This document shows, one piece after another, positions 1 to 62,703 of a stretch of 64,000 bases of DNA. Within the stretch, counting starts at the first letter, position 1; every line of letters starts with the position of its first letter. The position numbers and the translations under genes were made by a program. The notes beneath the pieces are model-generated. The model was not told where the DNA came from and made no database searches. It saw only the letters and a program-made list of their open reading frames with translations. Source of the stretch: a virus. The stretch lies in the IMG/VR virus record IMGVR_UViG_3300031963_000020, positions 62,001 through 126,000 of that record; one strand, 5' to 3'.

Positions 1-2
1 TT

Positions 3-959
3 ACTGGAGCATTTGCACCAGTCAATCAAATCCTTGGTATGATGAAGTTTCAACGAGGTAAAGCTAAAGTTGTTGATGAACCAGAAAAGAAACCAGCAGA
101 AGAACCACAAGTAACCACACAAACAACAACTACACCAACTGGTGAAAAACGAACCATTGCTATTTTTCCTGGTCGTTTTCAACCATTCCACGCAGGACAT
201 TACAGTATCTATCGTGCTTTGGTCGAAAAGTTTGGTAAAGAAAATGTTTATATCGCAACCAGTGATAAGACCGACCCAACCAAATCACCATTTGGGTTTG
301 TTGAAAAGAAAGACATTATCACAAGAATGTTTGATATTCCGGAAGATATGGTGGTACAAGTAAAAAATCCATACGCACCAGTTGAAATCACCGGTAATAT
401 GCCAGACAATACAGTTGTGGTAACTGCAGTCAGTGAAAAAGACTCAGAACGATTAACGGGTGGTAAATACTTTACACCGTATGATGGTGAAACAGCGACA
501 CAAGGATTTAAAGATAAAGGATATTTCATAGTTGCACCAGAAATGCAACTACAACTTCAAGGCAAAAACATTAGTGGAACTCAAGTTAGAGCATTGTTAG
601 GTAATCCAAATATTACTGACGAAGCAAAAGAAGAAATATTCACAATGATATATGGTAAGTTCGACCCAGACATATTTAAAAAGATTGTTAAAACTACTAC
701 GGACTCAGAAAAAGCATTGGCACTTACACAACAGCATGGTGGTAAAAAAGCTGCAAAACCACGAGTAAAAAAGAAAGCGGGAGAACCACAAAAAGGTGTG
801 AGAAAAAAAGCAGTAAAACCAGAACCAAAAGATCCATCATTTTACAAACCTGGTGAATCGTGGGAAACTGAAACTGGAAACTTTGGTGGCAAGAATAAAA
901 AGAATCAAGTAAGATATTTTGGTACAAAGGACCGAGCAGACAAATTCGCTAAATCATAA
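3..959 (+). CDS. NadM-like nucleotidyltransferase, 5' partial
   Basis: Nucleotidyltransferase of the HxGH superfamily, which joins a nucleotide to a phosphorylated substrate (NMN adenylyltransferase/cytidylyltransferase type). Counting from the ATG at 39, the nucleotide-binding motif GRFQPFHAGH is at residues 45-54 and the second motif ISGTQVR at 178-184. A basic Lys/Pro linker follows, then a C-terminal module with GGKNKKNQVRYF. The frame stays open from base 3 to the window edge and there is no Shine-Dalgarno before the ATG at 39, so the gene probably starts upstream. The Pro/Thr-rich stretch before the catalytic domain suggests a linker to a missing N-terminal part. Substrate is not identifiable; NAD salvage is the likeliest role. 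Ten bases separate it from the next gene. Confidence 0.8.
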   Translation, partial: TGAFAPVNQILGMMKFQRGKAKVVDEPEKKPAEEPQVTTQTTTTPTGEKRTIAIFPGRFQPFHAGHYSIYRALVEKFGKENVYIATSDKTDPTKSPFGFVEKKDIITRMFDIPEDMVVQVKNPYAPVEITGNMPDNTVVVTAVSEKDSERLTGGKYFTPYDGETATQGFKDKGYFIVAPEMQLQLQGKNISGTQVRALLGNPNITDEAKEEIFTMIYGKFDPDIFKKIVKTTTDSEKALALTQQHGGKKAAKPRVKKKAGEPQKGVRKKAVKPEPKDPSFYKPGESWETETGNFGGKNKKNQVRYFGTKDRADKFAKS

Positions 960-3844: not shown

Positions 3845-4003
3845 ATGATTAAATTAGTTGATATTTTGTTGACAGAAAAATGGACAAACAGATACAAAAA
3901 GTCCATAAATTGTAGTAATCCAAAGGGTTTCAGCCAAAAAGCACATTGCGCTGGACGTAGAAAGCGTAAACGTGGTGGGAAAACAACATCAAAACCGGTA
4001 TAA
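3845..4003 (+). CDS. Small Cys-box protein (52 aa)
   Basis: A 52-residue basic protein, too short for many gene callers. It begins MIKLVDILLTEKW and continues with INCSNPKGFSQKAHCAGR and a Lys/Arg-rich tail. The CSNPKGFSQKAHC motif is, from memory, frequent as a short module in proteins of T4-like aquatic phages; its role is unknown, but two cysteines and one histidine could bind a metal. The N-terminus matches the MI(K/R)LTDIL.E pattern of four neighbours, which looks like a capsid-targeting sequence. The ATG follows a candidate late promoter by 34 nt. Confidence 0.6.
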   Translation: MIKLVDILLTEKWTNRYKKSINCSNPKGFSQKAHCAGRRKRKRGGKTTSKPV

Positions 4004-4006
4004 GAT

Positions 4007-4267
4007 ATGACCAAAGATGAACTTTTAGAAATTATTCGTGAAGAATTAGAAGCGGAATTGGCAGAACGCACCGTAGCTCGCCGTGAACCACCACGTAAAA
4101 TGGATAAGTCCCAAGTCAAAAAGCGTGATGGTATTGGCAAGAAGTTGTTAAAGAACAAGCGTTCTATCCGTTATTTTAAGGATAAGTTCGGTGATGATTG
4201 GAAATCATACCTTTGGGCAGCATCAACCAACAAGGCAATAGATAGTAAGAAAAGTAAAGGTAAGTAA
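4007..4267 (+). CDS. Small basic helical protein
   Basis: An 86-residue protein starting three bases after the previous stop. The N-terminal 20 residues form an acidic amphipathic helix (MTKDELLEIIREELEAELAE) and the rest is basic, with the motif RYFKDKFGDDWKSYLWAAST. Short proteins with this DWKS.LWA.A pattern occur in other T4-like phages, without known function. It belongs to the cluster of small genes between terminase and portal; a role as an internal head protein is inferred only from position. Confidence 0.6.
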   Translation: MTKDELLEIIREELEAELAERTVARREPPRKMDKSQVKKRDGIGKKLLKNKRSIRYFKDKFGDDWKSYLWAASTNKAIDSKKSKGK

Positions 4268-4268
4268 T

Positions 4269-4754
4269 ATGGAATATAAAGAATATTACACCTACATTTT
4301 TGAGGATTGCGGTTGTCTCCACGAAGCTGATTGTGGTTGTGGAGAACAAGAAGAGGGATATCCTGGATTTGGATATAAAGAAACAGAGAGTGATTTTAAA
4401 GATCCACGATTACAAAAAGCTGAAGAGATTGTAACGTTGTTAGAAAAGAACACACCAACCAGTCCTGAAAAGTGGGCACGAGCAAAAGCAGCCGCACGTG
4501 CCAAGTTCAAAGTATATCCATCAGCATACGCTAACCTTTGGGCAGCAAAGAAGTATAAGAGTATGGGTGGTGGTTGGAGAAAAACTAAGAAAGAATATCA
4601 TATACCACACAAGCGACGTGATCCAATGGGTCAAGAGGACGCAGATGTAAATAATGATGGAAAAGTAAATTTAATAGATAAAATGTTAAAAGCAAAACGT
4701 GATTTGTATAAGAGATATTTGGTGGCACAAAAGAAGGGACAAAAATCCCTCTAA
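4269..4754 (+). CDS. Protein with YPSAYAN module and dockerin-like Ca loop
   Basis: A 161-residue protein with three visible parts. The N-terminus is Cys-rich (CGCLHEADCGCGEQ, about residues 14-27). The middle has KFKVYPSAYANLWAAKKYK followed by GGGW, a module seen in many phage proteins. The C-terminus has a 12-residue loop DVNNDGKVNLID that fits the dockerin/EF-hand calcium loop (Asp at 1 and 12, Asn3, Asp5, Gly6), then a basic helix. It starts as TAATATG after the previous stop. Calcium binding is inferred from the loop; overall function unknown. Confidence 0.6.
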   Translation: MEYKEYYTYIFEDCGCLHEADCGCGEQEEGYPGFGYKETESDFKDPRLQKAEEIVTLLEKNTPTSPEKWARAKAAARAKFKVYPSAYANLWAAKKYKSMGGGWRKTKKEYHIPHKRRDPMGQEDADVNNDGKVNLIDKMLKAKRDLYKRYLVAQKKGQKSL

Positions 4755-4772
4755 ACACTTTGGAGAAGTAAT

Positions 4773-5243
4773 ATGATTAGACTTATGGGATTGGTAGCTG
4801 GTATCAAGGGAATTGGTGATAAGCCAGTTGGAGCTGTAAAAGAAGCTCTTGACGCCGTTGGTAAAGAAGATGGTGATATCGATAATGATGGTGATAAAGA
4901 TTCATCAGACAAGTATTTAAAAGCTCGCCGTGATGCTATCGGTAAGTCAATGGAAAAAAAGGAAGAAATCGGACCTAAAGATGCAGTTGATTCTGGTGAA
5001 TATGATTACGAAGGTGACATGGCAAAGAATCAATTACAAACCATTATTAGAAATGCACAAATGTTGCATGATATGTTGGCAGACGACACCAACTTACCAG
5101 AATGGGTACAAAATAAAATTTCTTTAGCTAAGGAATATACTGAATCTGCTGCACAATATATTAGTAGTGAAAAGGACCAAAATGGTACAGCTGAAGTTCC
5201 TGGAGCAGCAGGTGCAGTTCCAGCACCATCGGGAACAATGTAA
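4773..5243 (+). CDS. Head-region protein with Ca-loop and conserved helical domain
   Basis: A 156-residue acidic protein. A loop DIDNDGDKDSSD (about residues 35-46) fits an EF-hand/dockerin calcium site. The second half contains YDYEGDMAKNQL and, further on, DDTNLPEWVQNKISLAKEY, a helical module that I recognise from several virion-associated proteins of cyanophage-type myoviruses. The tail is Ala/Gly/Pro-rich. It starts MIRLMGLV, a divergent version of the shared N-terminus of its neighbours. GGAGAAG precedes the ATG and its stop overlaps the next start as TAATG. Role unknown, probably in the virion. Confidence 0.6.
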   Translation: MIRLMGLVAGIKGIGDKPVGAVKEALDAVGKEDGDIDNDGDKDSSDKYLKARRDAIGKSMEKKEEIGPKDAVDSGEYDYEGDMAKNQLQTIIRNAQMLHDMLADDTNLPEWVQNKISLAKEYTESAAQYISSEKDQNGTAEVPGAAGAVPAPSGTM

Positions 5244-5605
5244 TGGAAACTGTAGCCAAGTTTTTATCCACACTATTCAATAGTCGTGACCAAGCACATA
5301 TCTTTCATCTCCAAACATCATCGTATGCCGTTCACAAAGCATTAAACGATTATTATGATGCAGTTGTAGGGTTGGTTGATAGCTACGCAGAAACTTGCCA
5401 AGGTCGCTATGGAATTATCCGTGGTTATACTCCACAAAAACAATACTTTGAAAACGATGAAGTAATTAAGTATTTTACTGGATTATCAACCTATATTGAT
5501 AGTGTTCGTAAGGGACTACCACAAGATGGTGACCTTAATAATATTGTTGATGAAATCTCAGCGTTGGTGAATTCCACTATCTATAAGTTAAAATATTTAA
5601 AATGA
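5243..5605 (+). CDS. Small helical, Dps/DUF5856-like protein
   Basis: A 120-residue helical protein with FNSRDQAHIFHLQT near residues 13-26 and conserved His and Asp/Glu residues spaced along predicted helices. It resembles small phage proteins that I associate with the DUF5856 or Dps-like four-helix group, but the assignment is from memory and weak. The start overlaps the preceding stop (TAATG) and the stop overlaps the next start (ATGA), so translation is probably coupled on both sides. Confidence 0.55.
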   Translation: METVAKFLSTLFNSRDQAHIFHLQTSSYAVHKALNDYYDAVVGLVDSYAETCQGRYGIIRGYTPQKQYFENDEVIKYFTGLSTYIDSVRKGLPQDGDLNNIVDEISALVNSTIYKLKYLK

Positions 5606-5925
5606 TTCTTTTAACTGACCTTTTAGACGAAGTTGTAACTGAACTTGACGAAAAGTATAAAACCAAAGGTAATCTTGGTAAATGGCTTCGTCAAAAATGG
5701 GTAGATATTTCTCGCAAAGATAAAAAAGGAAAACATCCACCATGCGGTGCTTCGGCTGGTAAGAAAGAGCGAAAGGGTGGTAGTGCAAAATATCCAAAGT
5801 GTCGTCCCGCTCGTTCCGCAGCAGCGATGAGTAAAGGTGAAAAACGTTCGGCTGTAGTTAGAAAGAGAAAAGCAGGAAATCCAGGTGGAAAACCAACAAT
5901 GGTTTCTACCTTTAAAAAGAAATAA
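5602..5925 (+). CDS. Small basic Cys-box protein (DUF5872-like)
   Basis: A 107-residue very basic protein. It starts MILLTDLLDEV, a member of the shared N-terminal pattern, then KWVDISRKDKKGKHPPCG, a second cysteine in YPKCRPARSAAAMS and a Lys/Arg-rich tail. The WV.IS...G....CG....K..YPKC.P.. layout matches short proteins labelled DUF5872 in other phages, by memory. Two cysteines and high positive charge suggest nucleic-acid or metal binding; packaging inside the head is possible. Confidence 0.55.
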   Translation: MILLTDLLDEVVTELDEKYKTKGNLGKWLRQKWVDISRKDKKGKHPPCGASAGKKERKGGSAKYPKCRPARSAAAMSKGEKRSAVVRKRKAGNPGGKPTMVSTFKKK

Positions 5926-5947
5926 ACTCTTGACTTTGAGAGAGAAA

Positions 5948-6517
5948 ATGATTAGATTAACTGATATTCTTTGCGAAGGTTGTTGGGAAGGATATAAGCA
6001 AGTTGGTATGAAGGAAAAGAACGGTAAGATGGTTCCCAACTGCGTTCCAGTAGAAGAACTTTATCATCGTCCAGAAAGTGATGTTACATCGGATAGTGAT
6101 TTCAAGCCAGACCAAGATAATGAACGTGACCAATTCGGCTCGGAAACACACGTTTCAGGTCACGAAGATGAAATAAACGATGGTGAATACTGCACAGAAT
6201 GTCTTATTGAAGTTCTTGAAGGATTACACGAAAATCAACTCGGTGAAGCAGAATATCGTGGTCGTAAGGTTGCTCTCGGTAAGATTATGAGAGGTGATGT
6301 TAAGAAGTTTAAGGTGTTCGTCAAAGACCCAAAGAGTGGAAATATTAAGAAGGTTAATTTTGGTCATGGTGGAACTTCGGCAAAACGTCGAGGTGAAAAG
6401 ACAATGAAGATTAAAAAAAATATCCCTTCTCGTCGTAAGTCGTTCCGTGCAAGACACAATTGTGATAATCCAGGTCCAAGAACAAAAGCTCGTTACTGGG
6501 CATGTCGTACCTGGTAA
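5948..6517 (+). CDS. Modular Cys-box protein with capsid-targeting-like N-terminus
   Basis: A 189-residue protein made of known phage modules. The start MIRLTDILCEGCW carries an LxE|G site like those cut by T4-type gp21 protease. Next is GYKQVGMKEKNGKMVPNCVP (residues about 14-33), a very common short phage module. After an acidic stretch the C-terminus has SRRKSFRARHNC and NPGPRTKARYWAC, another widespread motif with two cysteines. I chose the ATG at 5948 with GAGAGA before it; an in-frame ATG at 5885 lies inside the previous gene. Function unknown, probably virion-associated. Confidence 0.6.
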   Translation: MIRLTDILCEGCWEGYKQVGMKEKNGKMVPNCVPVEELYHRPESDVTSDSDFKPDQDNERDQFGSETHVSGHEDEINDGEYCTECLIEVLEGLHENQLGEAEYRGRKVALGKIMRGDVKKFKVFVKDPKSGNIKKVNFGHGGTSAKRRGEKTMKIKKNIPSRRKSFRARHNCDNPGPRTKARYWACRTW

Positions 6518-6518
6518 T

Positions 6519-6839
6519 ATGAAAAAGAAAATCTCACGGGAACAATCCGACAAGATATTAGATAAAATGGGTTATAAGTTTAATCCAACAGAATTCTTTT
6601 TAGGGATGAATGTTGAGTTGGAACACCAAGATGTGACCAACGGAAACGTGGTCAAGACTGCAAAAATCGCAGCAGCACACTTGAAAGAAAACCCGAAGTA
6701 TTATTCATTATTAATGAAGTACGTAGAAAAGAAGCATGAACAACTAGTTGGACCTGGTGGGGCAATCAACGCAGCACCAAAACCACAAGATGTTAAAAAA
6801 ATGCGAACAGCATTGGATAGGGAGAAAAAGCATGATTAA
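6519..6839 (+). CDS. DUF5661-like small protein
   Basis: A 106-residue protein starting one base after the previous stop (TAATATG). The core FFLGMNVELEHQDV followed by TAKIAAAHLKENPKYYSLL closely fits the small DUF5661-type proteins found in phages and some bacteria, as remembered; it is probably all-helical. The C-terminal tail is basic. Its stop overlaps the next start by eight bases. No activity is known for the family. Confidence 0.6.
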   Translation: MKKKISREQSDKILDKMGYKFNPTEFFLGMNVELEHQDVTNGNVVKTAKIAAAHLKENPKYYSLLMKYVEKKHEQLVGPGGAINAAPKPQDVKKMRTALDREKKHD

Positions 6840-7182
6840 GCTCACAGATTTAATCACAGAAGCAGGTAAGGAAAACCGCATCAACTCAATGCGTTTGGTC
6901 GCATTACTTGAAAAGTTAACTCCAACCCTTAAAGAAGCTCAAGAAGAAAAGTTGGCAAAACTAACCGCAGAATTACTTGCAGGAATCACCAAGGTCAATG
7001 AAATACCATACAACTACAACACAATGTCAGAATGGCATATGACCGAATTGGCAACCGTAGTAATGCCAGCTCGTGATTTACGTGAAGCATTAAATAGTCT
7101 ATTGAAGAAACCAGCTAAGGGATTAGATACACACATCGTTGAAATGGTTATCAAGTCAATAGACGAATTGTATATCTACTAA
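6832..7182 (+). CDS. Small helical protein with capsid-targeting-like N-terminus
   Basis: A 116-residue, mostly helical protein. The first 12 residues MIKLTDLITEAG contain ITE|A, an exact fit to the T4 gp21 cleavage consensus (I/L)-x-E|(A/G), at about the distance from the N-terminus seen in T4 internal proteins. GGGAGAAAA precedes the ATG. The rest has no motif that I recognise. Last of the small genes before the portal. Confidence 0.6.
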   Translation: MIKLTDLITEAGKENRINSMRLVALLEKLTPTLKEAQEEKLAKLTAELLAGITKVNEIPYNYNTMSEWHMTELATVVMPARDLREALNSLLKKPAKGLDTHIVEMVIKSIDELYIY

Positions 7183-7196
7183 CAAGTTGAGGGGTT

Positions 7197-9089
7197 ATGG
7201 CTGATAACAGCATATTTGGCAGACTAAAGAAATTATTTTCTACTAATACGGTAGTTCGTAATGTTGGTGGAAAAAGACTTAAAGTAGCCGACACAGATAA
7301 CATTCAATCGTTTATCAATAGACGCGGTATTGATAGATACCACCGCGTCTATTCTTCTATGACGGGTGGATATGGTTCTGCCCATGGACGATATGAAGCA
7401 GCGGCTGCGTTCCAAGGTTCCCGCTTGCAATTGTTCCGTGATTATGATATGATGGATAATGACCCCATTATTTCATCGGTGATGGACATCTATGCTGACG
7501 AATCAACCACCAAAGATGAATTTGGTAATCTCCTTACCATTCATTCGAAGAATACACAAATACAAGAAATCTTACATAACTTATTCTATGATGTATTGAA
7601 TGTGGAATTCAATATGTGGCCTTGGATTCGTAATATGGTCAAGTATGGTGATTTCTTTTTATTCCTAGACATAGACCCAGAATTTGGAATTGTAAATGTA
7701 TTACCCCTTTCTGTCTATGAAACTATTCGTATCGAAGGTCAAGACCCAGGTAATCCATTCTCAGTCAAGTTCAAGATTGAAAACGATTTCTTATCGTTAG
7801 GTAAGACTGAATTCGATAATTACGAAATAGCTCACTTCCGTCTCCTTTCGGACACCAACTTCCTTCCATATGGTAAGGCAATGGTTGAAGGTGGTCGTCG
7901 TGTGTGGAAACAACTTCAATTGATGGAAGATGCGATGTTAATTCATCGTATTATGAGAGCGGCAGATAAGCGTAAGATTTTAATTGATATCGGTAATATC
8001 CCACCAGCAGAAATCGATACGTTTATGAATCGTATTATGGATAGAATGAAGAAAACACCATTGGTAGATCCTGCAACTGGTGATTATAATCTTCGTTATA
8101 ATATGCAAAATATCACAGAAGATTTTTATCTTCCTGTTCGCGGTAAAGATTCTGGAACAGACATCCAAAACCTTCCAGGTCTACAATTTAATGCTATCGA
8201 AGATATTGAATACCTCCGTAATAAGTTAATGGCAGCATTCAAGGTACCAAAAGCATTCTTAGGATACGAAGAAGATTTAAGTGGTAAGGCAACATTGGCG
8301 GCACAAGATGTACGTTTCGCACGTACTATAGAACGTATCCAACGTATTATGGTGTCAGAACTCACCAAGATTGCAATTATCCACTTATACGTTCAAGGAT
8401 TTACTGATGAAGATTTGATAGACTTTGAATTATCGTTGACCAACCCATCAATTGTCTATGAACAAGAAAAGTTAAACTTATGGAAGGAAAAGATTGGGGT
8501 TGCAGAATCTATTATGAACAGTAAGATGTTATCACAAGAATGGATATACCATAATATTCTTGAATTATCTGATGATGAAATCGTGGAAGAACGTACTAAG
8601 ATTGCAGAAGATGTAAAACGTATGGCACAGTTAGAACAATCAGCACAACCACAACAACCAGGTGCTACAGGTGAACAACCAGCAACAGATGAAGCACCAC
8701 CAACCGAAGAAGAGGAACAACAAGTTTCTGATGTTGATAGTATTTTGGCCTCATTAGAAGATGGTGGTGAGGAAAGTGAGTTGGAAGGATACGGTGATGA
8801 AGAAGCTGAATTAGAAGAAGCTAAGATGGGCCGTCCAAAAACAGGAATGAAATTTGGTCAAGACAGTCACCCACGTGGTCGTGACCCACTCGGACACAAA
8901 GAAAATATGGGTTCGTTGACGGTCAGTAAACAACGAAATGATAAAAGAAAGTCTCCGTTGGCACTTACTAAAGAAGTTCAGGCATTAGTTGCAAACTTAA
9001 AAAAGCCAAGTAAGAAAGTCTTAATGGAAAACCAAGAACCAACTGGTTCTTTATTAGACGAAAGTAATATTTTGGACCTAGAAAACTAA
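7197..9089 (+). CDS. 20: Portal vertex protein (gp20-like)
   Basis: Portal protein that forms the dodecameric DNA channel at one head vertex, nucleates prohead assembly and binds terminase. Strong T4-type signatures include RDYDMMDNDPIISSVMDIYA and the region around FKVPKAFLGYEEDLSGKATL. The canonical portal ends near residue 490; about 140 further residues form an acidic, Gln/Pro-rich linker, then LEEAKMGRPKTGMKFGQD and a basic tail. The LEE|A inside this extension fits the gp21 cleavage consensus, so the tail may be trimmed during maturation. GAGGGGTT precedes the start. Confidence 0.95.
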   Translation: MADNSIFGRLKKLFSTNTVVRNVGGKRLKVADTDNIQSFINRRGIDRYHRVYSSMTGGYGSAHGRYEAAAAFQGSRLQLFRDYDMMDNDPIISSVMDIYADESTTKDEFGNLLTIHSKNTQIQEILHNLFYDVLNVEFNMWPWIRNMVKYGDFFLFLDIDPEFGIVNVLPLSVYETIRIEGQDPGNPFSVKFKIENDFLSLGKTEFDNYEIAHFRLLSDTNFLPYGKAMVEGGRRVWKQLQLMEDAMLIHRIMRAADKRKILIDIGNIPPAEIDTFMNRIMDRMKKTPLVDPATGDYNLRYNMQNITEDFYLPVRGKDSGTDIQNLPGLQFNAIEDIEYLRNKLMAAFKVPKAFLGYEEDLSGKATLAAQDVRFARTIERIQRIMVSELTKIAIIHLYVQGFTDEDLIDFELSLTNPSIVYEQEKLNLWKEKIGVAESIMNSKMLSQEWIYHNILELSDDEIVEERTKIAEDVKRMAQLEQSAQPQQPGATGEQPATDEAPPTEEEEQQVSDVDSILASLEDGGEESELEGYGDEEAELEEAKMGRPKTGMKFGQDSHPRGRDPLGHKENMGSLTVSKQRNDKRKSPLALTKEVQALVANLKKPSKKVLMENQEPTGSLLDESNILDLEN

Positions 9090-9152
9090 AGTCTTATTAA
9101 TATTCGTTATATTTAATATATGACGGTATACTGTCACTAAAATGGGATGTTT

Positions 9153-10031
9153 ATGAAAGCAAACGTCAAGCATAACAAAATTCGGAATACGGGCATACTA
9201 TTTGAACTATTAGTCCGTAAAATAACCTCAGACGCATTGGAAAACCGTAGTAATGATACTGCGGTCAAACTAATGAAAGAGTATTTCAATTCTAAGACAG
9301 AACTTGGTAAAGAATTGATACTTTATCGTTCCTTCTTCAATGCACAACAACTCAGTGAAACTAAGGCATTTGAACTTATCAACGTATTGATATCACAACG
9401 TAAAAAGTTAAATGAAGTGGCATTAAACACACAAAAATACAAGTTAATTCGTGAAATTAAAAACAACTACGATTTAAAAGAATTTTTAAATGCCCGTATT
9501 CCGTCTTACAAAGTTTATGCTTCTGTATATAAGGTATTTGATGGTGCAGTAAACGAAATCCAAGACTTCAATGAAATTCAAGGTATGGTTGAAGCTAAGT
9601 TTACTATTGTTGAACATTTAAGTGGTAAGATTGTCAACAAGGAAATTAAGAAGGAAACTGCATTATTTGAAACCGTAAAGAACCAAGAAGAAGATTTACG
9701 TTTATTAACCTACAAGATTTTGATGGAAAAGTTCAATCAAAAGTATGTAGACCTTAGTGATAAGCAAAAAAACCTTCTCCGTGAATATATCTATAACGTA
9801 TCCAATTCAGCAGCTCTTCGAGCATATGCCGTAGATTTGGCAAAAGAATTGATTGCCGAAATAACAAAGAAGATAGCTAAAATTGATAATAAAGTGACTA
9901 CCATCAAGTTGTCAGAAGTTGTTTCACAATTGGAAAAGTTAAAGACAGTTCAAATGGTCAAGGAAAATCACATGACCGCGTTATTAATTGCCTTGGAAAT
10001 TACCAAGACACTAGACACTTTAAAGAGTTAA
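9153..10031 (+). CDS. Conserved helical protein between portal and protease
   Basis: A 292-residue, strongly helical and lysine-rich protein beginning MKANVKHNKIRNTGILFELL, a start I associate with uncharacterised proteins between portal and prohead protease genes in marine T4-like phages. No enzymatic motif is visible. I chose the ATG at 9153 because GGGA lies at a suitable distance; the in-frame ATG at 9147 touches that sequence. A variant TATTTAAT octamer occurs at 9110-9117. It may be a scaffold or assembly component, from position alone. Confidence 0.6.
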   Translation: MKANVKHNKIRNTGILFELLVRKITSDALENRSNDTAVKLMKEYFNSKTELGKELILYRSFFNAQQLSETKAFELINVLISQRKKLNEVALNTQKYKLIREIKNNYDLKEFLNARIPSYKVYASVYKVFDGAVNEIQDFNEIQGMVEAKFTIVEHLSGKIVNKEIKKETALFETVKNQEEDLRLLTYKILMEKFNQKYVDLSDKQKNLLREYIYNVSNSAALRAYAVDLAKELIAEITKKIAKIDNKVTTIKLSEVVSQLEKLKTVQMVKENHMTALLIALEITKTLDTLKS

Positions 10032-10034
10032 TCT

Positions 10035-10532
10035 ATGGACAAAACACAACAAATTCGTGAACGCGTCCGACAAATTATCAAGAAAAAACTTGATGAAATG
10101 ACAACGACAGCAAATGTTCCTGGATACCTAACTCCATATTCGTTTCGTGGTAATAAAGCAAAGAGTGTAGCACGTTCTAAGCATATTGCCACCGCAACCA
10201 CAGGATTTAAGTTAACTCCAAAGGGTGAAGAAGAAGCAAATCGTCCAGCCGATAAAATGGAAATTGTCACTAAGGAATTAAACGAAAACAAGTATTACGA
10301 ATATAAGAACGACACATCAAAGACACCACACAGAAAGATTGCAGAAGCTATTTCACAACTTAATAGAAATTTACAAGAAGTTGAACGTGTTATTAGAATG
10401 AATAGTCGTTTAAAGACTGAATCAGGTATCGCAAGTGAACAACTATGGAAGCGTACACAACAAGGATTATTGAAGTTGGAATCAAGACTTCTTGGACTTG
10501 CAACACGCATCCGTGAAATCCGTGGGCAATAA
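10035..10532 (+). CDS. Small head-region protein of unknown function
   Basis: A 165-residue protein. Its N-terminal helix RQIIKKKLDEMTTT is followed by ANVPGYLTPYSFRGN, a motif common to hypothetical proteins near gene 21 in cyanophage-type myoviruses, and then a long charged helical region. LDE|M at about residue 19 is a weak fit to the prohead protease site. It precedes the protease gene by a single base (TAATATG). Function unknown. Confidence 0.6.
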   Translation: MDKTQQIRERVRQIIKKKLDEMTTTANVPGYLTPYSFRGNKAKSVARSKHIATATTGFKLTPKGEEEANRPADKMEIVTKELNENKYYEYKNDTSKTPHRKIAEAISQLNRNLQEVERVIRMNSRLKTESGIASEQLWKRTQQGLLKLESRLLGLATRIREIRGQ

Positions 10533-10533
10533 T

Positions 10534-11121
10534 ATGCAAACATTACTCGTAGAATATAATGTCATTTCTTATGACACTACTTTATTAAAAGAAGCAGCAG
10601 ACATCAGTAAACCTTTGATGTTAAAAGATGTTTTACTTCAACGTGCAGAAATGAAGAACCAGAATGGTCGTGTATATCCAAAGGAAATCTTATCACGTGA
10701 AGCAATGGTATACAAGAATAACTTCGTATCACAACGCCGTGCACTTGGTGAACTCGACCATCCAGAAAGTCCTGTCGTCAACTTAAAAAACGTCTGTTGC
10801 AACGTCACCGAACTCTGGTTCGAAGGTGATGATGTCAAGGGCAATATCGAAATTTTATCTACCCCATCAGGCAATATCGTTCGTGAACTCATCAAGAACA
10901 ATATCCGATTGGGTGTTTCATCCCGTGGTATGGGTTCTGTCAAACCAATCGGTGAGAATACTGTAGAAGTTGGTGATGACTTCTCACTTATCTGCTTTGA
11001 TATTGTCAGTAATCCAAGTACTCACGGGGCATTTATCAACGAAAACAAGGGTGGTCAAATTATCACCCCCTATAGTCGTATTGATACATTGATATATGAC
11101 TTTTTAGGTGAACTAAAGTAA
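10534..11121 (+). CDS. 21: Prohead core protease (gp21-like)
   Basis: Serine protease of the T4 gp21 type, packaged in the prohead core, which cuts scaffold, capsid and internal proteins after (L/I)-x-Glu and then itself. The likely catalytic His76 sits in GELDHPESP and the Ser at 129/130 in LGVSSRGMGS, with the usual spacing. LKE|A near residue 20 is a plausible self-cleavage site. The chosen start follows the upstream stop as TAATATG; an earlier in-frame ATG at 10492 overlaps the previous gene. Its 195-residue length is close to T4 gp21. Confidence 0.9.
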   Translation: MQTLLVEYNVISYDTTLLKEAADISKPLMLKDVLLQRAEMKNQNGRVYPKEILSREAMVYKNNFVSQRRALGELDHPESPVVNLKNVCCNVTELWFEGDDVKGNIEILSTPSGNIVRELIKNNIRLGVSSRGMGSVKPIGENTVEVGDDFSLICFDIVSNPSTHGAFINENKGGQIITPYSRIDTLIYDFLGELK

Positions 11122-11130
11122 GGAGTTTTT

Positions 11131-11388
11131 ATGACAACATTTTTAGTAGTAGTATTCGTATTAGCAGTTGTAATTTATTTTGTTAATCGTAAGGTAATGG
11201 AAGCCCCAGCACCTTTGTTAAAGGCAACCAAGAAGGTTGAAGCAGTTGCAGTTAAGGTTGTTGATGTCAACGGTGATGGTAAGGTTGACCTCAAAGACGC
11301 AGTTGCAGCCGTTAAGGCAGTAGAAGCAACTAGTAAAAAGGTTGTTAAGAAGGCAAAAAAGATAACAACAAAGAAAAAGACCAAATAA
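11131..11388 (+). CDS. Single-pass membrane protein with dockerin-like Ca loop
   Basis: An 85-residue protein with an N-terminal transmembrane helix (residues 3-20), a 12-residue loop DVNGDGKVDLKD that is a textbook dockerin/EF-hand calcium loop, then an Ala/Val helix and a very basic tail of lysines. AAGGAG lies before the ATG. The membrane anchor would place the loop on one side of the inner membrane. Function unknown; calcium binding is inferred. It is the third protein in the head region with such a loop. Confidence 0.55.
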   Translation: MTTFLVVVFVLAVVIYFVNRKVMEAPAPLLKATKKVEAVAVKVVDVNGDGKVDLKDAVAAVKAVEATSKKVVKKAKKITTKKKTK

Positions 11389-11394
11389 TTTTCT

Positions 11395-11763
11395 ATGCGA
11401 CTTAAAGCTTTACTAAATGAAAATATCACAAATGAATTTGTAAAGTTTGTCGCAAAAGAGCTACAACTTCAATCACTACCTGCCAATATTAAATTTGTGG
11501 GTAGTGATTATTCTAAAGAAAATTTAACCTTTGGAACCTATAATCCACAAACTGACGAAATTATTATCGTAAAAGGTAATCGTCATATTGCGGATGTATT
11601 ACGAACCTTGGCTCACGAGATGGTGCATCACAAACAACGAACCAGTAATCAAGAGTTGAATGGTGAAGATGGGTCAAACACAGAAAACGAAGCAAATGCA
11701 AAAGCAGGTGAATTAATGCGTAAGTTTAGATACTTACGACCAGAAATGTACGTGGAGAGATAA
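11395..11763 (+). CDS. Zincin-like metallopeptidase (HExxH)
   Basis: A 122-residue protein with the zinc metallopeptidase motif HEMVH at residues 74-78 and a downstream NTENEANA that could supply the third ligand. It belongs by appearance to small HEMVHHKQ-type phage proteins of unknown target. The N-terminus MRLKALLNEN carries LNE, like the capsid-targeting pattern of the small genes upstream. It lies between the prohead protease and scaffold genes, so a role in head maturation or in degrading host protein is possible. The stop is followed at once by the next ATG. Confidence 0.65.
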   Translation: MRLKALLNENITNEFVKFVAKELQLQSLPANIKFVGSDYSKENLTFGTYNPQTDEIIIVKGNRHIADVLRTLAHEMVHHKQRTSNQELNGEDGSNTENEANAKAGELMRKFRYLRPEMYVER

Positions 11764-13651: not shown

Positions 13652-14911
13652 ATGGCAGAAATTACAAACGAACTTCTAAAGCAAGCAATTGCAGATGCAG
13701 ATGCAGTCCGTGATATGGCTATCGCAAATGCAAAGATTGCATTAGAAGAAACCTTCACACCCCAAATCAAGTCCATGCTTGCAAAGCGCTTACGTGCCGA
13801 AGCAATGGAAACAGCAGAAGGTGCGGAAAAGGCAAAGGAAGAACCATTCCAAGACGCAACACACGTAACAGGTGGTGGTCCAGAAGATACTTCCGCAATC
13901 GGAACTGGTGACAACAAGGAACCATCCGATGCAGCAAACTACTCATCGGATATTGATCAAGGCGGTGAAGGTGAAACCGACTCATCAACCGATTGGTATG
14001 ATGATTGGTCAGAATCAGATTTTGACCTTGACGAAGTAATCAAGGAATTAGAAGGAGATGTAAACGCACTTTCAGAAGCTGAAGAAGAAGAACTCGACGA
14101 AGCTAAGCATGAAGGTGAAGAAGAGAAGGAAGAAATGAAGGAAGGTTATAATGAAGAAATGCATGATGATGAAGAAAAGGAAGAGGAAGAGGAAAAGGCA
14201 GACGAAGCAGCTAAGGTTGTAGACCCAACCGCAGATGCAGGCACCCCACCAGAAGCAGCTAAGAAACATTCAGATGCAATGCAAAAGAAGGGTGATGACA
14301 AGCCATCCGCTCCAGCAGTAAATCCTATGGGTAAGGCAGAAGGTGCAGAAGATGCATCAGACCCACATAAGTTCGCAATGAACCCAGCAGAACCAAAGAT
14401 GGAAATGGGTTATGGCGCAGGTGAAGGTGAAGGCGAAGAAGAACTCGATCTTGAAGCAATCCTTCGTGAATTAGAAGCCCAAGATGCTAAGGACACAGAA
14501 CAAAAGCATCAAATGGCATCTAAGATGGCAGATCTTCAAAAAGAGCTAGCAGAATATCGTAAGGTTGTAGAAGTCCTACGAGGCAAGCTTAACGAAGTAA
14601 ATCTTCTAAACGCAAAACTCCTTTATACCAACAAGATCTTCCGTAAGGAAGGTTTGACCAACGAACAAAAGGTTGCAATCCTCGAATCATTCGACAGAGC
14701 AATCAATGTACGTGAAGTCAAGATGGTATATGCAACATTAGCAGAAGCAATGACTGTAACTGCTAAGAATGCAAAGGGACGCACCGTATCAAGTAAGGTT
14801 GTTACCGAAGGTTTGGCATCAAAGCCAACCCCAAGTACAGCACCAAAGAAGGAAATTTTAGAAGAAAATACAGTCGCAAAGCGTCTACAACAACTCGCAG
14901 GCATTCTATAA
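13652..14911 (+). CDS. 22: Prohead scaffold core protein (gp22-like)
   Basis: A 419-residue, highly acidic and helical scaffold that forms the prohead core and is degraded by the gp21 protease before packaging. It has long Glu/Asp-rich tracts, several (L)-x-E|A cleavage candidates (for example ALSEAEEEELDEAKHEG), and a conserved C-terminal helical part with LNEVNLLNAKLLYTNKIF. GAGAGG precedes the ATG at 13652; an ORF extension to 13577 lacks a ribosome-binding site and is Cys-rich and unlikely. It lies directly before the capsid gene as in T4. Confidence 0.9.
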   Translation: MAEITNELLKQAIADADAVRDMAIANAKIALEETFTPQIKSMLAKRLRAEAMETAEGAEKAKEEPFQDATHVTGGGPEDTSAIGTGDNKEPSDAANYSSDIDQGGEGETDSSTDWYDDWSESDFDLDEVIKELEGDVNALSEAEEEELDEAKHEGEEEKEEMKEGYNEEMHDDEEKEEEEEKADEAAKVVDPTADAGTPPEAAKKHSDAMQKKGDDKPSAPAVNPMGKAEGAEDASDPHKFAMNPAEPKMEMGYGAGEGEGEEELDLEAILRELEAQDAKDTEQKHQMASKMADLQKELAEYRKVVEVLRGKLNEVNLLNAKLLYTNKIFRKEGLTNEQKVAILESFDRAINVREVKMVYATLAEAMTVTAKNAKGRTVSSKVVTEGLASKPTPSTAPKKEILEENTVAKRLQQLAGIL

Positions 14912-14931: not shown

Positions 14932-16512
14932 ATGTCAGGTGTATCAGAATTTATCAACGAAGCCGGTTCAGCACACCGCGTAGTAGTTGAACAAACCCGC
15001 CAATTGGCAGGTAAGTGGGAAAAGTCAGGCCTTCTTGAAGGCTTAACTGGTCACGAAAAGCAAGGTATGGCAGTAATGCTTGAAAACCAAGCAACACAAC
15101 TTCTTTCAGAAGCAACAACCACCAACCCAGCAGGTGCAGGTTCAGCTGGTGAAAACTGGGCAGGTGTCGCACTTCCATTAGTACGTAAGGTATTCGGTTC
15201 AATCGCAAGTAAGAACTTCGTATCAGTACAACCAATGAACTTACCAGCAGGTTTGGTATTCTTCATGGATTTCAAGTATGCAAACACAGTAAACGGTAAG
15301 ACCGCAGGTGGTTCACTCTATGGTACAACCAGTGGTTCAGGTGTTCTTCCACGTGGTGGTTTCTACGGTGCTGGTGAATACGCATACTCAGTAAATGATG
15401 CAACATTAACACTTGCACCAGCAATTGGTTCAGGTTCAGCAGTTGGTTATGGTGATGTAAACTACAACGATACATACTCATCATCATTTGCATCATTCTT
15501 CAAGTTCGTTGTTCCAGCAGTAAGTTTCTCAAACGCTGACTTCAACGCAGTTCGTTCATTCCGCGTAACAACAAACGTTGCAGGTGGTGCACTTCTTCCA
15601 GAATTCACCAAGTATGACGGAACAAACGTTACACTTATCGTAAGTGGAACATCAGCTCTTGGTTCAATGGTATCAATGTCAGCAGTTGAATACAATAAGC
15701 AACCAACAGACACCACCCGTGGTGACTTCGAAGATCGTGATAACTCAGTAACAAACTTGAACATTCCACAAATTGATTTGGAACTTCGTTCAGAAACAAT
15801 CGTAGCAAAGACCCGTAAGTTGAAGGCAGTCTGGTCACCAGAACTTGCACAAGACTTGAACGCATACCACTCAGTTGATGCAGAAGCAGAATTAACAGCA
15901 ATGTTAAGTGACTACATCTCAACTGAAATCGACCTTGAAATTCTTGATATGTTGATTGCAAACGCAACCACAACAGAATTCTGGAATGCAGAAGTTGGTA
16001 AGGTATGGAACGGTTCAGCATTCGTAGCAAGTGCAACGCTCAGTGGTCAAGCTTGGACATCAATGACTTGGTTCCAAACACTTGGTCAAAAGATGCAAAA
16101 GGTATCAAACAAGATTCACCAACTCACAATGCGTGGTGGTGCAAACTTTGCAGTATGTTCACCAACCGTTGCAACAATCTTGGAAACAATCCCAGGATTT
16201 ATGGCAGCAACAGACGGTGATAAGATGGAATTTGCAGGTGGCGTAACAAAGGTTGGTTCATTCCAAAACCGTTACACAATCTACAAGAACCCATATATGA
16301 CCGAAAACACATTGTTAATGGGCTTCCGTGGAAGTAACTTCCTCGAAACTGGTGCAGTCTACGCACCATATATCCCACTTATCATGACTCCATTGGTATA
16401 CGATCCAAACAACTTCACACCACGTAGAGGCGTAATGACCCGCTACGCGAAGAAGATCGTACGTCCAGAATTCTTCGGTAAGATCTTCATCGATGGATTA
16501 GCAACTGTCTAA
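14932..16512 (+). CDS. 23: Major capsid protein (gp23-like)
   Basis: HK97-fold major head protein of T4 type, 526 residues. The N-terminal propeptide includes SEFINEAG and ends at QLLSE|ATTTNPAG, giving a predicted gp21 cut after Glu60, close to the T4 position after Glu65. The body contains the region around FQNRYTIYKNPYMTEN and the conserved C-terminus TPRRGVMTRYAKKIVRPEFF. AGGAGAT precedes the ATG. A strong terminator follows, so scaffold and capsid probably form one highly expressed unit. Confidence 0.96.
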   Translation: MSGVSEFINEAGSAHRVVVEQTRQLAGKWEKSGLLEGLTGHEKQGMAVMLENQATQLLSEATTTNPAGAGSAGENWAGVALPLVRKVFGSIASKNFVSVQPMNLPAGLVFFMDFKYANTVNGKTAGGSLYGTTSGSGVLPRGGFYGAGEYAYSVNDATLTLAPAIGSGSAVGYGDVNYNDTYSSSFASFFKFVVPAVSFSNADFNAVRSFRVTTNVAGGALLPEFTKYDGTNVTLIVSGTSALGSMVSMSAVEYNKQPTDTTRGDFEDRDNSVTNLNIPQIDLELRSETIVAKTRKLKAVWSPELAQDLNAYHSVDAEAELTAMLSDYISTEIDLEILDMLIANATTTEFWNAEVGKVWNGSAFVASATLSGQAWTSMTWFQTLGQKMQKVSNKIHQLTMRGGANFAVCSPTVATILETIPGFMAATDGDKMEFAGGVTKVGSFQNRYTIYKNPYMTENTLLMGFRGSNFLETGAVYAPYIPLIMTPLVYDPNNFTPRRGVMTRYAKKIVRPEFFGKIFIDGLATV

Positions 16513-59985: not shown

Positions 59986-61307
59986 TGGTTGTACAATCGG
60001 TTCTGGACTTACAAAAACTACAGAAGCGAATAGATACCGAGGTGTCGTATATGGCACCTATCCTCGTTGACCAGCACTCGCATCCTGCGGTCAATCAAGT
60101 GTCCTCTTTACATATTGCGTTTAACGACGGGGAATACTTCTGCGTTCCCTTTAATCATCCCGATGGTATCCCTCTATCGGTCGAACTTAAAGACGCATTT
60201 AAGATTGTTACCCTATACAAACGAGAAATCCTTCATGCGTTCCCAAGTGTTCCACACGAACGGGTGCATGATGTTGCGACTATTCTCCACTTATCCAGTA
60301 ATAGTATTCCAGAAATTCGTGAATACTATACTCCGAATATCCAACGAACATTACAGCAGTTTCAGTTTAAGAACCTGCATCTCAGTATCCCGTTGACGAT
60401 GTGGATGGAATATGGACACAACCTACTTCGTTTCATCCACGAATCATACAAGAAGCATACAACACCAGATGGGTATGAGTTTGTCAATAATACAATCATT
60501 CCAACGTTGACCACGATTGAGAAGTCGGGGCTATGTATTGACCAGAATATCTTGACAGAACACTTTGGGTCAGACATAAAAAAATATATAACTAATAATA
60601 CAATATATTCAGAATATAATCCATATACTGCTACAGGTCGTCCAAGCAACAAGTATGGTGGTATCAATTTTGCTGCACTAAATAAATCGGATGGAACTCG
60701 TGGAGCATTTACCAGTAGATATGGGGACGATGGACTTCTCATCCAGTTTGACTACGAAGCGTTCCACTTACGTCTGGTTGGGGCACAAATGGGATATGAC
60801 CTTCCAAATAGTTCTGTCCATACCTTTCTCGCTCAGCAGTATTATGGTAAAGAGGAGGTCAATCCTGAGGAATATGAGGCGTCAAAAGCAAGAACATTTG
60901 CATTGATGTATGGAATGACCGAAGAGTTCGGTAATGTTGATTTCTTCCATAAGGTTAGAAAGTATAGTGAACTGATATGGGAAATCTATAGAAGCTCTGG
61001 ATATGTAAAGACCAAAACGGGTAAGAAACTGGTGGTCGAAGAACCATCGCAGAATAAAGTGTTTAACTATTCTGTACAATGGTTGGAAACAGAATCAGCA
61101 CTCACTAATGTCGCAAAGGTGTGTGAGTTATTAAAGGGACGATTGACGAAACCTATTCTCTACACTTATGACGCATTACTCTTAGATTTACACAGGTCGG
61201 AAGCAGCAATGCTCCCAGCAATCAAGAGTTTGTTAGAGGGAGAAATGTATCCAACTAGAATGTATAAGGGTAAAAATTACAATGAACTTTTGAAGGTAGA
61301 AATATAA
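59985..61307 (+). CDS. Reduced family-A DNA polymerase
   Basis: A 440-residue PolA-type polymerase. Motif A is LLIQFDYEAFHLRLVGA with catalytic Asp256; motif B is SKARTFALMYGM with Lys301 and Tyr309-Gly310; motif C is TYDALLLDL with catalytic Asp396. The upstream TATGRPSNKYGGINFAAL fits the usual TGRLSS..PNLQN. The N-terminal 120 residues look like a worn 3'-5' exonuclease: ILVDQHSHP where DxE is expected. The steric-gate Glu of motif A is replaced by His261 and the motif C pair HDE by YDA. It precedes gp32 and UvsX. It may be a repair or accessory polymerase, or the main replicase. Confidence 0.75.
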   Translation: MVVQSVLDLQKLQKRIDTEVSYMAPILVDQHSHPAVNQVSSLHIAFNDGEYFCVPFNHPDGIPLSVELKDAFKIVTLYKREILHAFPSVPHERVHDVATILHLSSNSIPEIREYYTPNIQRTLQQFQFKNLHLSIPLTMWMEYGHNLLRFIHESYKKHTTPDGYEFVNNTIIPTLTTIEKSGLCIDQNILTEHFGSDIKKYITNNTIYSEYNPYTATGRPSNKYGGINFAALNKSDGTRGAFTSRYGDDGLLIQFDYEAFHLRLVGAQMGYDLPNSSVHTFLAQQYYGKEEVNPEEYEASKARTFALMYGMTEEFGNVDFFHKVRKYSELIWEIYRSSGYVKTKTGKKLVVEEPSQNKVFNYSVQWLETESALTNVAKVCELLKGRLTKPILYTYDALLLDLHRSEAAMLPAIKSLLEGEMYPTRMYKGKNYNELLKVEI

Positions 61308-61327
61308 GGTTTGACCTTACATAATAA

Positions 61328-61335
61328 TATTTATT
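61328..61335 (+). promoter_or_regulatory. TATTTATT octamer
   Basis: Variant of the recurrent late-type octamer, 52 nt before the ATG at 61380. Downstream, GTAAAA and TTTTAC can pair around GCAGGAAG, possibly hiding a ribosome-binding site. Confidence 0.25.
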
Positions 61336-61379
61336 AGGAGTAAAAAAGCAGGAAGTTTTACCCTAATGAGTTTATTATT

Positions 61380-61787
61380 ATGAAACCAGAAACACAGTTA
61401 CTTTGTACTTTCTGTGCAAAAAAGGATATTGAATCCACCATAGAACAAATCAAGAAAATCTACACACTCGCATTTAATTCGGTTTATGTGTTGGATAATG
61501 TGAATGATGAGAATCAAGCAATCTTGACGTATAATATCGATTTATCGAAACCAGTTCTTGGTGAAGCACCAGAATCTACAATTTCAGTACATAGAAAGAA
61601 GCAAACAAACACTATCTACACAATCAATGCTATTAATAAGTTGATTGAAGAAAAGAATGGTGGTGTATTAGATAAGACCTATAAGATTGATTGGACTGAA
61701 TTACAAAATACTGTTTTAGTCACCGCATACGGTCGCCTTAAAAAAGTAAATACTAAAATATCAAATATTATTAATATTCAAAACTAA
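61380..61787 (+). CDS. Small protein between polymerase and gp32, unknown
   Basis: A 135-residue alpha/beta protein with MKPETQLLCTFCAKKDIEST at the N-terminus, a CTFC pair and a repeated I.KI/I.N pattern at the end. I do not recognise it by function. Proteins of this appearance are common near replication genes of T4-like phages. A five-codon mini-ORF (61366-61383) ends on the start codon (ATGA overlap), which may couple translation. Confidence 0.55.
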   Translation: MKPETQLLCTFCAKKDIESTIEQIKKIYTLAFNSVYVLDNVNDENQAILTYNIDLSKPVLGEAPESTISVHRKKQTNTIYTINAINKLIEEKNGGVLDKTYKIDWTELQNTVLVTAYGRLKKVNTKISNIINIQN

Positions 61788-61790
61788 GGC

Positions 61791-61819
61791 TTGACAAACA
61801 CAACTGACCTCATTATCAT
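61791..61819 (+). promoter_or_regulatory. Sigma70-like promoter of gp32
   Basis: TTGACA (61791-61796), 17-base spacer, TATCAT (61814-61819). An inverted repeat ACCTCA (61807-61812) / TGAGGT (61826-61831) brackets the -10 and could be an operator or form a hairpin at the transcript 5' end. The -35 context is identical to that of the radical SAM promoter. Confidence 0.7.
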
Positions 61820-61871
61820 ACGTGGTGAGGTGTATTAAACACTCAACTCTAAACACTAAGGAGAAAATTGT

Positions 61872-62690
61872 ATGGCACTAGATTTTAATGCCCTAAAGGC
61901 AAAGCTCAACACATTCACAAAGCAAAGTGACCGAAGTGAGTCGCTTTGGAAGCCCACCGAAGGTAAGACAACCATCCGTATTGTCCCGTGGGCAAAGAAC
62001 CGCGAGAACCCTTTCATTGAACTCTATTTCCACTATATCGGAAATAAGACTTACATCTCGCCTCTTTCATTTGGTCGCCGCGACCCTATCGCGGAATTCG
62101 CAGACAAGTTAGTTGAAGATGCACGCCGTGAAGGTCGTGAAGCGGAGAAGGCTGCCTGGAAGCAGGCTAACGCTTTCCGTCCGAAGCTTCGTACCTATGT
62201 TCCTATCATCGTTCGTGGTGAAGAGGACAAGGGTGTTCGTTTCTTCTCATTCGGTAAGACGGTCTATCAGGACCTCCTTTCCTACATCGCTGATCCTGAC
62301 TACGGTGATATTACTGATCCGAAGGTTGGTCGTGATGTTGTGGTCGAATATATCCCACAAGAGAAGTCCGACACGAACTTTGCCAAGACCTCAGTAAAGG
62401 TTAAGCCGAATCAGACCCCTGTGGTCGGTGATGTTGATGTTGCTAAGAAGCTTCTCTCGGAACAGCCCGATATCTTTGCACTCTACAAGGAACCTTCCTA
62501 TGAAGAGTTGATGGTTGTTCTCCAGAAGTATCTTGACCCAGATGGTTCGACTCCCACCCCCGCTCCTGCAAAGGGTAATTCTGAGGTCAAGAGTGTGACC
62601 GCCGAAGTCCTTGACGTTAAGACGGAGATTTCTGAGTCGGCACAAGTCAAGAACGCTCTTGATGAGTTCGATAAGCTATTCGACAATTAA
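61872..62690 (+). CDS. 32: Single-stranded DNA-binding protein (gp32-like)
   Basis: A 272-residue T4-type SSB that coats single strands in replication and recombination and recruits partners by its acidic tail. It begins ALDFNALKAKLNTFTKQSDR, has IRIVPWAKNRENPFIELYFH and SPLSFGRRDPIAEFADKL, and ends ALDEFDKLFDN. The T4 zinc site is not evident, as in many aquatic relatives. The gene is visibly richer in G and C at third positions than most neighbours. It has its own sigma70-like promoter and AAGGAGAAA ribosome-binding site, and is 14 bases from uvsX. Confidence 0.92.
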   Translation: MALDFNALKAKLNTFTKQSDRSESLWKPTEGKTTIRIVPWAKNRENPFIELYFHYIGNKTYISPLSFGRRDPIAEFADKLVEDARREGREAEKAAWKQANAFRPKLRTYVPIIVRGEEDKGVRFFSFGKTVYQDLLSYIADPDYGDITDPKVGRDVVVEYIPQEKSDTNFAKTSVKVKPNQTPVVGDVDVAKKLLSEQPDIFALYKEPSYEELMVVLQKYLDPDGSTPTPAPAKGNSEVKSVTAEVLDVKTEISESAQVKNALDEFDKLFDN

Positions 62691-62703
62691 TCGGTAATCA
62701 ACT

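Follow-up and report, generated by a model that had tools for sequence, protein, structure and literature searches.

The capsid-targeting sequence (CTS) of bacteriophage T4 has been known since 1996. It is a short N-terminal peptide carried by several unrelated proteins (IPI-III and Alt), with hydrophobic residues at positions 4, 7 and 8, a glutamate at position 10 and an (L/I)-x-E end cut by the gp21-type protease. Here we describe N-terminal tags with the same layout on small proteins encoded in the head region of a T4-like phage from an uncultured aquatic clade. The window analysed is a stretch of 64,000 bases, positions 62,001 to 126,000 of the 148,340-bp record IMGVR_UViG_3300031963_000020. 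Among named phages, Flavobacterium phage immuto and Microcystis phage Mel-JY01 have the closest capsid proteins, about 52% identical to that of this phage. We put at roughly 85% the probability that the first ten or so residues of the tagged proteins are cleavable capsid-targeting propeptides, loading cargo into the head by the mechanism proposed below.

Mutants of T4 IPIII show that residues 4 and 7 target the protein while residues 8 and 10 govern its processing (PMC9026906). The propeptide of T4 gp24 has ten residues (PMC9958956) and its sequence, MAKINELLRE, is identical in register and length to the tags described here, although gp24 is a shell vertex protein, unlike the internal cargo we propose. 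In phage P1 an N-terminal peptide of DarB is enough to send a reporter into the phage head, but it was 30 residues that were shown to suffice, P1 apparently has no separate scaffold, and the available sections report no phi-xx-phi-phi-x-E register, where phi is hydrophobic (PMC9024508). Jumbo phages of the phiKZ and SPN3US type have head proteins cut after glutamate by a gp21-related protease, with propeptides proposed to target, but these are longer and have another motif (PMC7411985). Several of the enzymes found in virions of the cyanophages S-CREM2, S-SZBM1 and S-SM1 carry the same N-terminal tag as this phage; the available sections of PMC10665884, PMC9146016 and PMC3037559 do not remark on a tag, and the S-CREM2 authors left packaging open. 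Reviews on the T4 CTS state an affinity for the core and, in their available sections, nothing further. Our literature search, with subscription journals and preprints mostly outside its coverage, found neither a paper that ties the CTS to virion enzymes of cyanophages nor one that connects it with scaffold C-termini. This phage differs from T4 in having many more cargo families, in that Pfam and PHROGs searches of the cluster proteins matched no T4 IPI-III or Alt family, and in that packaging and cleavage are here predicted from sequence.

The tags have the consensus M-I-[KR]-L-x-D-[LI]-[LI]-x-E. This is the T4 register, with hydrophobic residues at 4, 7 and 8 and glutamate at 10, and it ends in a fit to the (L/I)-x-E consensus of gp21; position -2 is leucine or isoleucine in 92% of cases, weighted by family, which is a match of letters only. 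For counting, we framed the motif as Met-x(1-4)-phi-x-x-phi-phi-x-Glu with the glutamate at residue 12 or earlier, and used gene starts called by a script. The motif begins 8 of the 20 genes in the head region (3.8-15 kb) but, across the remaining part of the 148-kb record, 4 of 156 (Fisher p = 2.5e-6). When everything after the methionine was shuffled, 1000 times over, the head region had 0.45 matches on average and 3 at most. One of the eight matches, gene 4007, has an N-terminus that looks different and may belong to another type; 7 of the 20 remain without it. A stricter motif applied to the whole genome found five true starts, all in the tagged cluster, its sole other match being an internal methionine. 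The plain pattern (L/I/F)-x-E near the N-termini of the genome's genes showed a weak excess, 19 against 10.9 expected, with shuffles reaching 20. Shine-Dalgarno support of the tagged starts varies and is weak at 3845 and 11395; the starts are nevertheless conserved in relatives. Both GAA and GAG encode the tag glutamate, GAG rarely, and we give this little weight.

The head region runs from the terminase large subunit (2219) through the small-gene cluster (3845-7182), the portal (7197), two small core-like genes and the gp21-type protease (10534) to several small genes, the gp22-type scaffold (13652) and gp23 (14932). All features described below are on the + strand. The N-termini quoted in the sequence-only reading of this DNA are all present, at 3845, 5602, 5948, 6832 and 11395, together with a capsid start at 14932 that lies beyond the range it gave. 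The tags at the first five places are MIKLVDILLTE (3845-3877) on a 52-residue basic protein (gene 3845-4003; relatives start MIKLMDLIPE), MILLTDLLDE (5602-5631) on a 107-residue basic protein (gene 5602-5925) that is DUF5872-like and matches phrog_23735, MIRLTDILCE (5948-5977) on a 189-residue two-module protein (gene 5948-6517), MIKLTDLITE (6832-6861) on a 116-residue helical-bundle protein (gene 6832-7182), and MRLKALLNE (11395-11421) on a 122-residue zincin-like protein with HExxH at residue 74 (gene 11395-11763). The 161-residue protein of gene 4269-4754 has a divergent tag, MEYKEYYTYIFE (4269-4304), whose relatives read MKYRDFFPE and MINYKEFFTE. The product of gene 4773-5243, a protein of 156 residues that contains an EF-hand-like acidic module, has the docking half MIRLMGLV (4773-4796) without the glutamate. 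The possible tag MTKDELLEIIRE (4007-4042) of the 86-residue protein of gene 4007-4267 is of a different N-terminal type, although it fits phi-xx-phi-phi-x-E. This second type, of which MKKSQLRQIIKE is another example, recurs in head regions, at 4007 and 10035 of the window and at 4272 of the related locus L089.

The gp21 homologue (10534-11121; phrog_207, E 5.6e-48) shares with T4 gp21 the conserved histidine and serine motifs of the active site, GELxHP and GVSSRGxGS, and its own N-terminus, MQTLLVE/Y (a slash marks the predicted cut), resembles the MNEPQLLIE/T of T4 gp21. The gp23 homologue (phrog_138, E 3.9e-70) has a CTS-like start, MSGVSEFINE/A (14932-14961). Taking SEFINE/A as the counterpart of the T4 gp23 maturation site did not stand, as it is LLSE/A at residues 57-60 (15100-15111) that aligns with T4 FLTE/AEIGG, matching by its position after a conserved ENQ segment. 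SEFINE/A may act as a further peptide for docking or cleavage.

The tag is widely conserved. Relatives were taken from at least 80 loci found by a portal search, and proteins were grouped by the part after residue 14; the counts for relatives, and for the sets of contigs found by pattern matching, are among the matches listed and so are lower bounds. Among 5'-complete members, the tag is present in 67 of 72 in the 6832 family and 46 of 51 in the 5602 family. It is also carried by 24/30 such members of the 3845 family, 19/26 of the 11395 family, 31/45 of the 4269 family and 27/55 of the 5948 family, and 20 of 24 relatives have a CTS-like start in gp23. Smaller families among the related loci are tagged too. 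By a loose motif, the tag is on most members in 10 of the 38 families of three or more, a few of them probably through the different N-terminal type. The tagged families share no detectable similarity past the tag. Short modules are common to some tagged proteins, and looser grouping merges these; the 3845, 5602, 6832, 11395 and gp23 families remain separate under a 60%-coverage rule. Members of one family differ in the letters of their tags and keep the pattern (MILLTDLLDE, MKLQDILVE, MIRFADLLVE, MTQFADILVE), with 16 distinct peptides in the 5602 family and 23 in the 6832 family. In the 6832 alignment, which extends to about 25% identity, there are four invariant columns only, and the tag glutamate, E10, is one of them. 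The sequence-only reading had seen the N-termini as CTS-like and had proposed looking for enrichment of the motif in small proteins of related phages. The first point is supported by the T4 spacing, the hydrophobic positions, the (L/I)-x-E end, the neighbouring gp21-type protease and the unrelated carriers. In the related loci the tag recurs on about a dozen unrelated small families.

The tag also behaves as a separable module. The DUF5661 protein (6519-6839) is untagged in this phage and tagged in relatives L083-L088 (MIRLRDLLTE). Conversely, untagged orthologues of two cargo families occur in pelagiphages and a roseophage. The pelagiphages HTVC023P, HTVC027P, HTVC106P and HTVC203P have 5602 orthologues that start close to the mature domain. 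In Kolga, HTVC026P and CRP-902 the orthologues correspond to the second half of the 5948 protein and have their start at an L-x-E/A junction invariant in its family. Together with the S-CREM2 proteomics and the scaffold likeness in immuto relatives, both described below, this makes three independent lines of support for packaging. A cargo orthologue in the T4-like phage C48C1 has a different tag in the same register, MKKFKQYIDE/G. AlphaFold2 modelling of the 6832 protein gives a confident helical bundle, outside which the tag forms a helix of low confidence. As a separate observation, a scan for FKQYLxEA found at least nine loci, and in seven the match lies near an N-terminus. Ligase-like proteins with a KWDG motif are tagged in register in C48C1 (L099, 5719-6942; MMLDFKNFITE/QKNTH) and HTVC008M (L101, 7724-8956; MYNDLLVE/DKNTH), and their IMG/VR relatives start MIKFKQYLEE/A.

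We propose that the tag forms a short amphipathic helix whose hydrophobic residues at -6, -3 and -2, counted from the glutamate, would dock on the scaffold core, drawing the attached protein into the head during prohead assembly. The gp21-type protease would then cut after (L/I)-x-E, and the mature protein, free within the capsid, would remain with the packaged DNA and presumably leave with it. The tag is a portable module exchanged among cargo proteins.

Cyanophage virions provide an independent test. The published proteome of S-CREM2, a Kyanoviridae cyanophage, contains 52 of its 219 proteins by mass spectrometry (MS; PMC10665884, Table 3). Six annotated S-CREM2 proteins have the exact register with glutamate at 10, and five of these were detected in virions: the S-adenosylmethionine (SAM) hydrolase gp6 (MKDFDSFLEE), the APH-like kinase gp14 (MKRFDAFLTE), the cytidylyltransferase/NMNAT gp154 (MKNFSSFLTE), and gp13 (MKDLHSFLTE) and gp136 (MQTFSMFFSE), which have no assigned function. 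The sixth, the 55-residue gp175 (MNWLKNYLIE), was not detected. The enrichment of the tag in the virion is significant (Fisher p = 0.003), more so when recognised structural proteins are removed (p = 0.00017). The NMNAT-like proteins detected by published MS in virions of S-SM1 (PMC3037559) and S-SZBM1 (PMC9146016) also start with a tag, MKKFSAFLNE and MRFRQFIIE respectively. As a packaging tag, these N-termini argue that the S-CREM2 enzymes are cargo rather than co-purified, and so they bear on the stated doubt over whether cyanophage enzymes are packaged. As the tag marks proteins found in S-CREM2 virions, it could help to predict which proteins such phages bring into cells; its presence both on about a dozen families in this clade and on cyanophage virion enzymes makes it a candidate predictor of virion cargo. 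The Cas9-like gp12 of S-CREM2 (L102, 7704-10313), also detected in virions, has an in-register LRFASFMAE/A about 26 residues in.

Several observations weigh against the capsid-targeting reading. The MS evidence comes from other phages, not from this one, and the S-CREM2 authors consider co-purification of enzymes possible, which MS detection alone cannot exclude (PMC10665884). The exact register matters, because a looser S-CREM2 motif (glutamate at 8-12) gives 10 matches of which 5 were detected (p = 0.06), and that register was chosen from knowledge of T4. In S-SZBM1, genes 191 and 192 have canonical tags, and the available sections of PMC9146016 do not name their products as virion proteins. 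Finally, the glutamate is missing in some members, namely in the 4773 family and in gp23 variants with FLDD.

The mature 3845 protein would have 41 residues, a charge of +14 and two cysteines, and the mature 5602 protein 97 residues and a charge of +23. The 5948 protein consists of two modules and contains cysteines, the 11395 protein has HExxH and weak zincin matches, and the 6832 bundle gave no match in the PDB with E below 0.001. That such proteins are injected as anti-host or anti-defence effectors, as the sequence-only reading had supposed, is a guess; DNA-binding or assembly roles are as likely, because the cargo includes small basic cysteine-containing modules, a zincin-like protein and a helical bundle. 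It is a possibility to be taken seriously, if a doubtful one, that the tag is a CTS and its cargo consists of internal structural or DNA-condensing head components, with delivery to the host incidental. The very basic mature 3845 and 5602 proteins and the conservation of the cluster across relatives fit this. However, the tagged cargo of S-CREM2 includes enzymes with no obvious structural role, and neither the metalloprotease-like 11395 protein nor the 6832 bundle is basic. This alternative is compatible with packaging and differs from capsid targeting of delivered cargo in purpose alone.

An unlikely alternative is that the tag is a helix docking to the prohead core that is not cut, or not always, the glutamate merely capping the helix. 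The 4773 family, in which MI[RK]LxGLV recurs without the glutamate, and the FLDD variants of gp23 are what it would expect, and in T4 an aspartate at position 10 stops processing and not targeting (PMC9026906). Since T4 proteins changed at residue 10 are still targeted, we predict that the 4773 protein is targeted to the head and not cleaved. On the other hand, the glutamate stays invariant where tag and protein have otherwise diverged, and some 5948 relatives have a six-residue start (MENITE/ACW, MEQMTE/ACW) in which the docking half is gone and [LIM]-x-E is kept at the same distance from the mature CW.GYK module. The addition of x-E to N-terminal copies of a scaffold peptide, described below, also argues for cleavage.

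Cleavage may not be confined to the N-terminus. The two modules of the 5948 protein are separated by an L-x-E/A at residues 98-100 (6239-6247), of which L98, E100 and A101 are invariant in the family; as the untagged orthologues begin at this junction, the protein probably has a second, internal gp21 site, and the sequence suggests a small polyprotein cut by gp21. The structure model of this protein is poor (pLDDT 47). Separately, the module CW.GYKQVGMK...VPNCVP is common in aquatic phages, and copies that follow [LIMFV]-x-E are often inside large proteins (L241-L360). The idea that a gp21 site always precedes CW.GYKQVGMK was rejected, as [LIMFV]-x-E stands there in 49 of the 115 distinct copies listed and many others have GP or DP.

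It is very improbable that the shared N-termini merely go back to gene duplication, as a leader copied along with the start of the gene and kept by chance: several tagged genes are neighbours and certain tags nearly identical (MIKLTDLITE, MIRLTDILCE), but the downstream parts are unrelated, the tag letters diverge while the hydrophobic and glutamate pattern persists (the 16 and 23 peptides above), the same pattern occurs in quite different sequences in T4 gp24 and the cyanophages, and loss of the pattern in relatives at a neutral N-terminal rate is not seen.

The C-terminus of the scaffold may be the model of the tags. The gp22-type scaffold (13652-14911), which lies just before gp23, ends in RLQQLAGIL (14882-14908), and LAG[IL][IL] is kept in 31 of 31 clade relatives. 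Phage immuto has an N-terminus of a different style, MKKQILSEQFRRMQKLAGIITE. A DNA pattern for MQKLAGI(I) found at least 123 places on at least 120 stretches in IMG/VR (L106-L225). Among the matches listed, RMQKLAGII was at the extreme C-terminus of one type of protein in 96 places, near N-termini in 22 and internal in 5. All 76 listed C-terminal cases that extend far enough have a gp23 start within 600 bases, and the protein is therefore the scaffold, gp22. The 22 listed N-terminal cases fall into 19 families with no detectable similarity beyond the tag. LAGII is followed by x-E in 22/22 of these N-terminal copies compared with 1/96 of the scaffold C-termini, again among the matches listed, and this creates an (L/I)-x-E site in the N-terminal copies. 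In immuto-type phages, then, the cargo tag is, by its sequence, the scaffold's C-terminal peptide plus a predicted cleavage site. As the tag copies the scaffold's end, the cargo probably docks on the surface used by the scaffold C-terminus, which offers a specific and directly testable docking mechanism.

We lean slightly towards a general form of this model, in which the tags are mimics of the scaffold's C-terminal docking peptide joined to a protease site. Cargo would occupy the binding place of the scaffold C-terminus and be freed by the protease that clears the scaffold, and the tag would be a readable address predicting the virion cargo of T4-like phages. For this clade, T4 and S-CREM2 we infer the mimicry, and the comparisons there count against it: the scaffold end LAGIL and the L-T-D-L-L of the tags have only the spacing L-xx-(L/I)-(L/I) in common in this clade, and the scaffold C-termini of T4 and S-CREM2 showed no resemblance to the tags. 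Were the model true, NMNAT-like enzymes, SAM hydrolases, kinases, Cas9-like nucleases and others would be cargo predictable from sequence.

Two further genes of the window are worth recording. An untagged gene (5243-5605) sits within the tagged cluster and matches phrog_858 ('starvation-inducible transcriptional regulator', E 3.7e-24). At the edge of the window (1-959; the start lies upstream, 60146-62959 of the record) is the gene for a 937-residue protein with a ligase-like KLDGQN motif and a C-terminal cytidylyltransferase domain, which we note since NMNAT-like proteins repeatedly occur in cyanophage virions.

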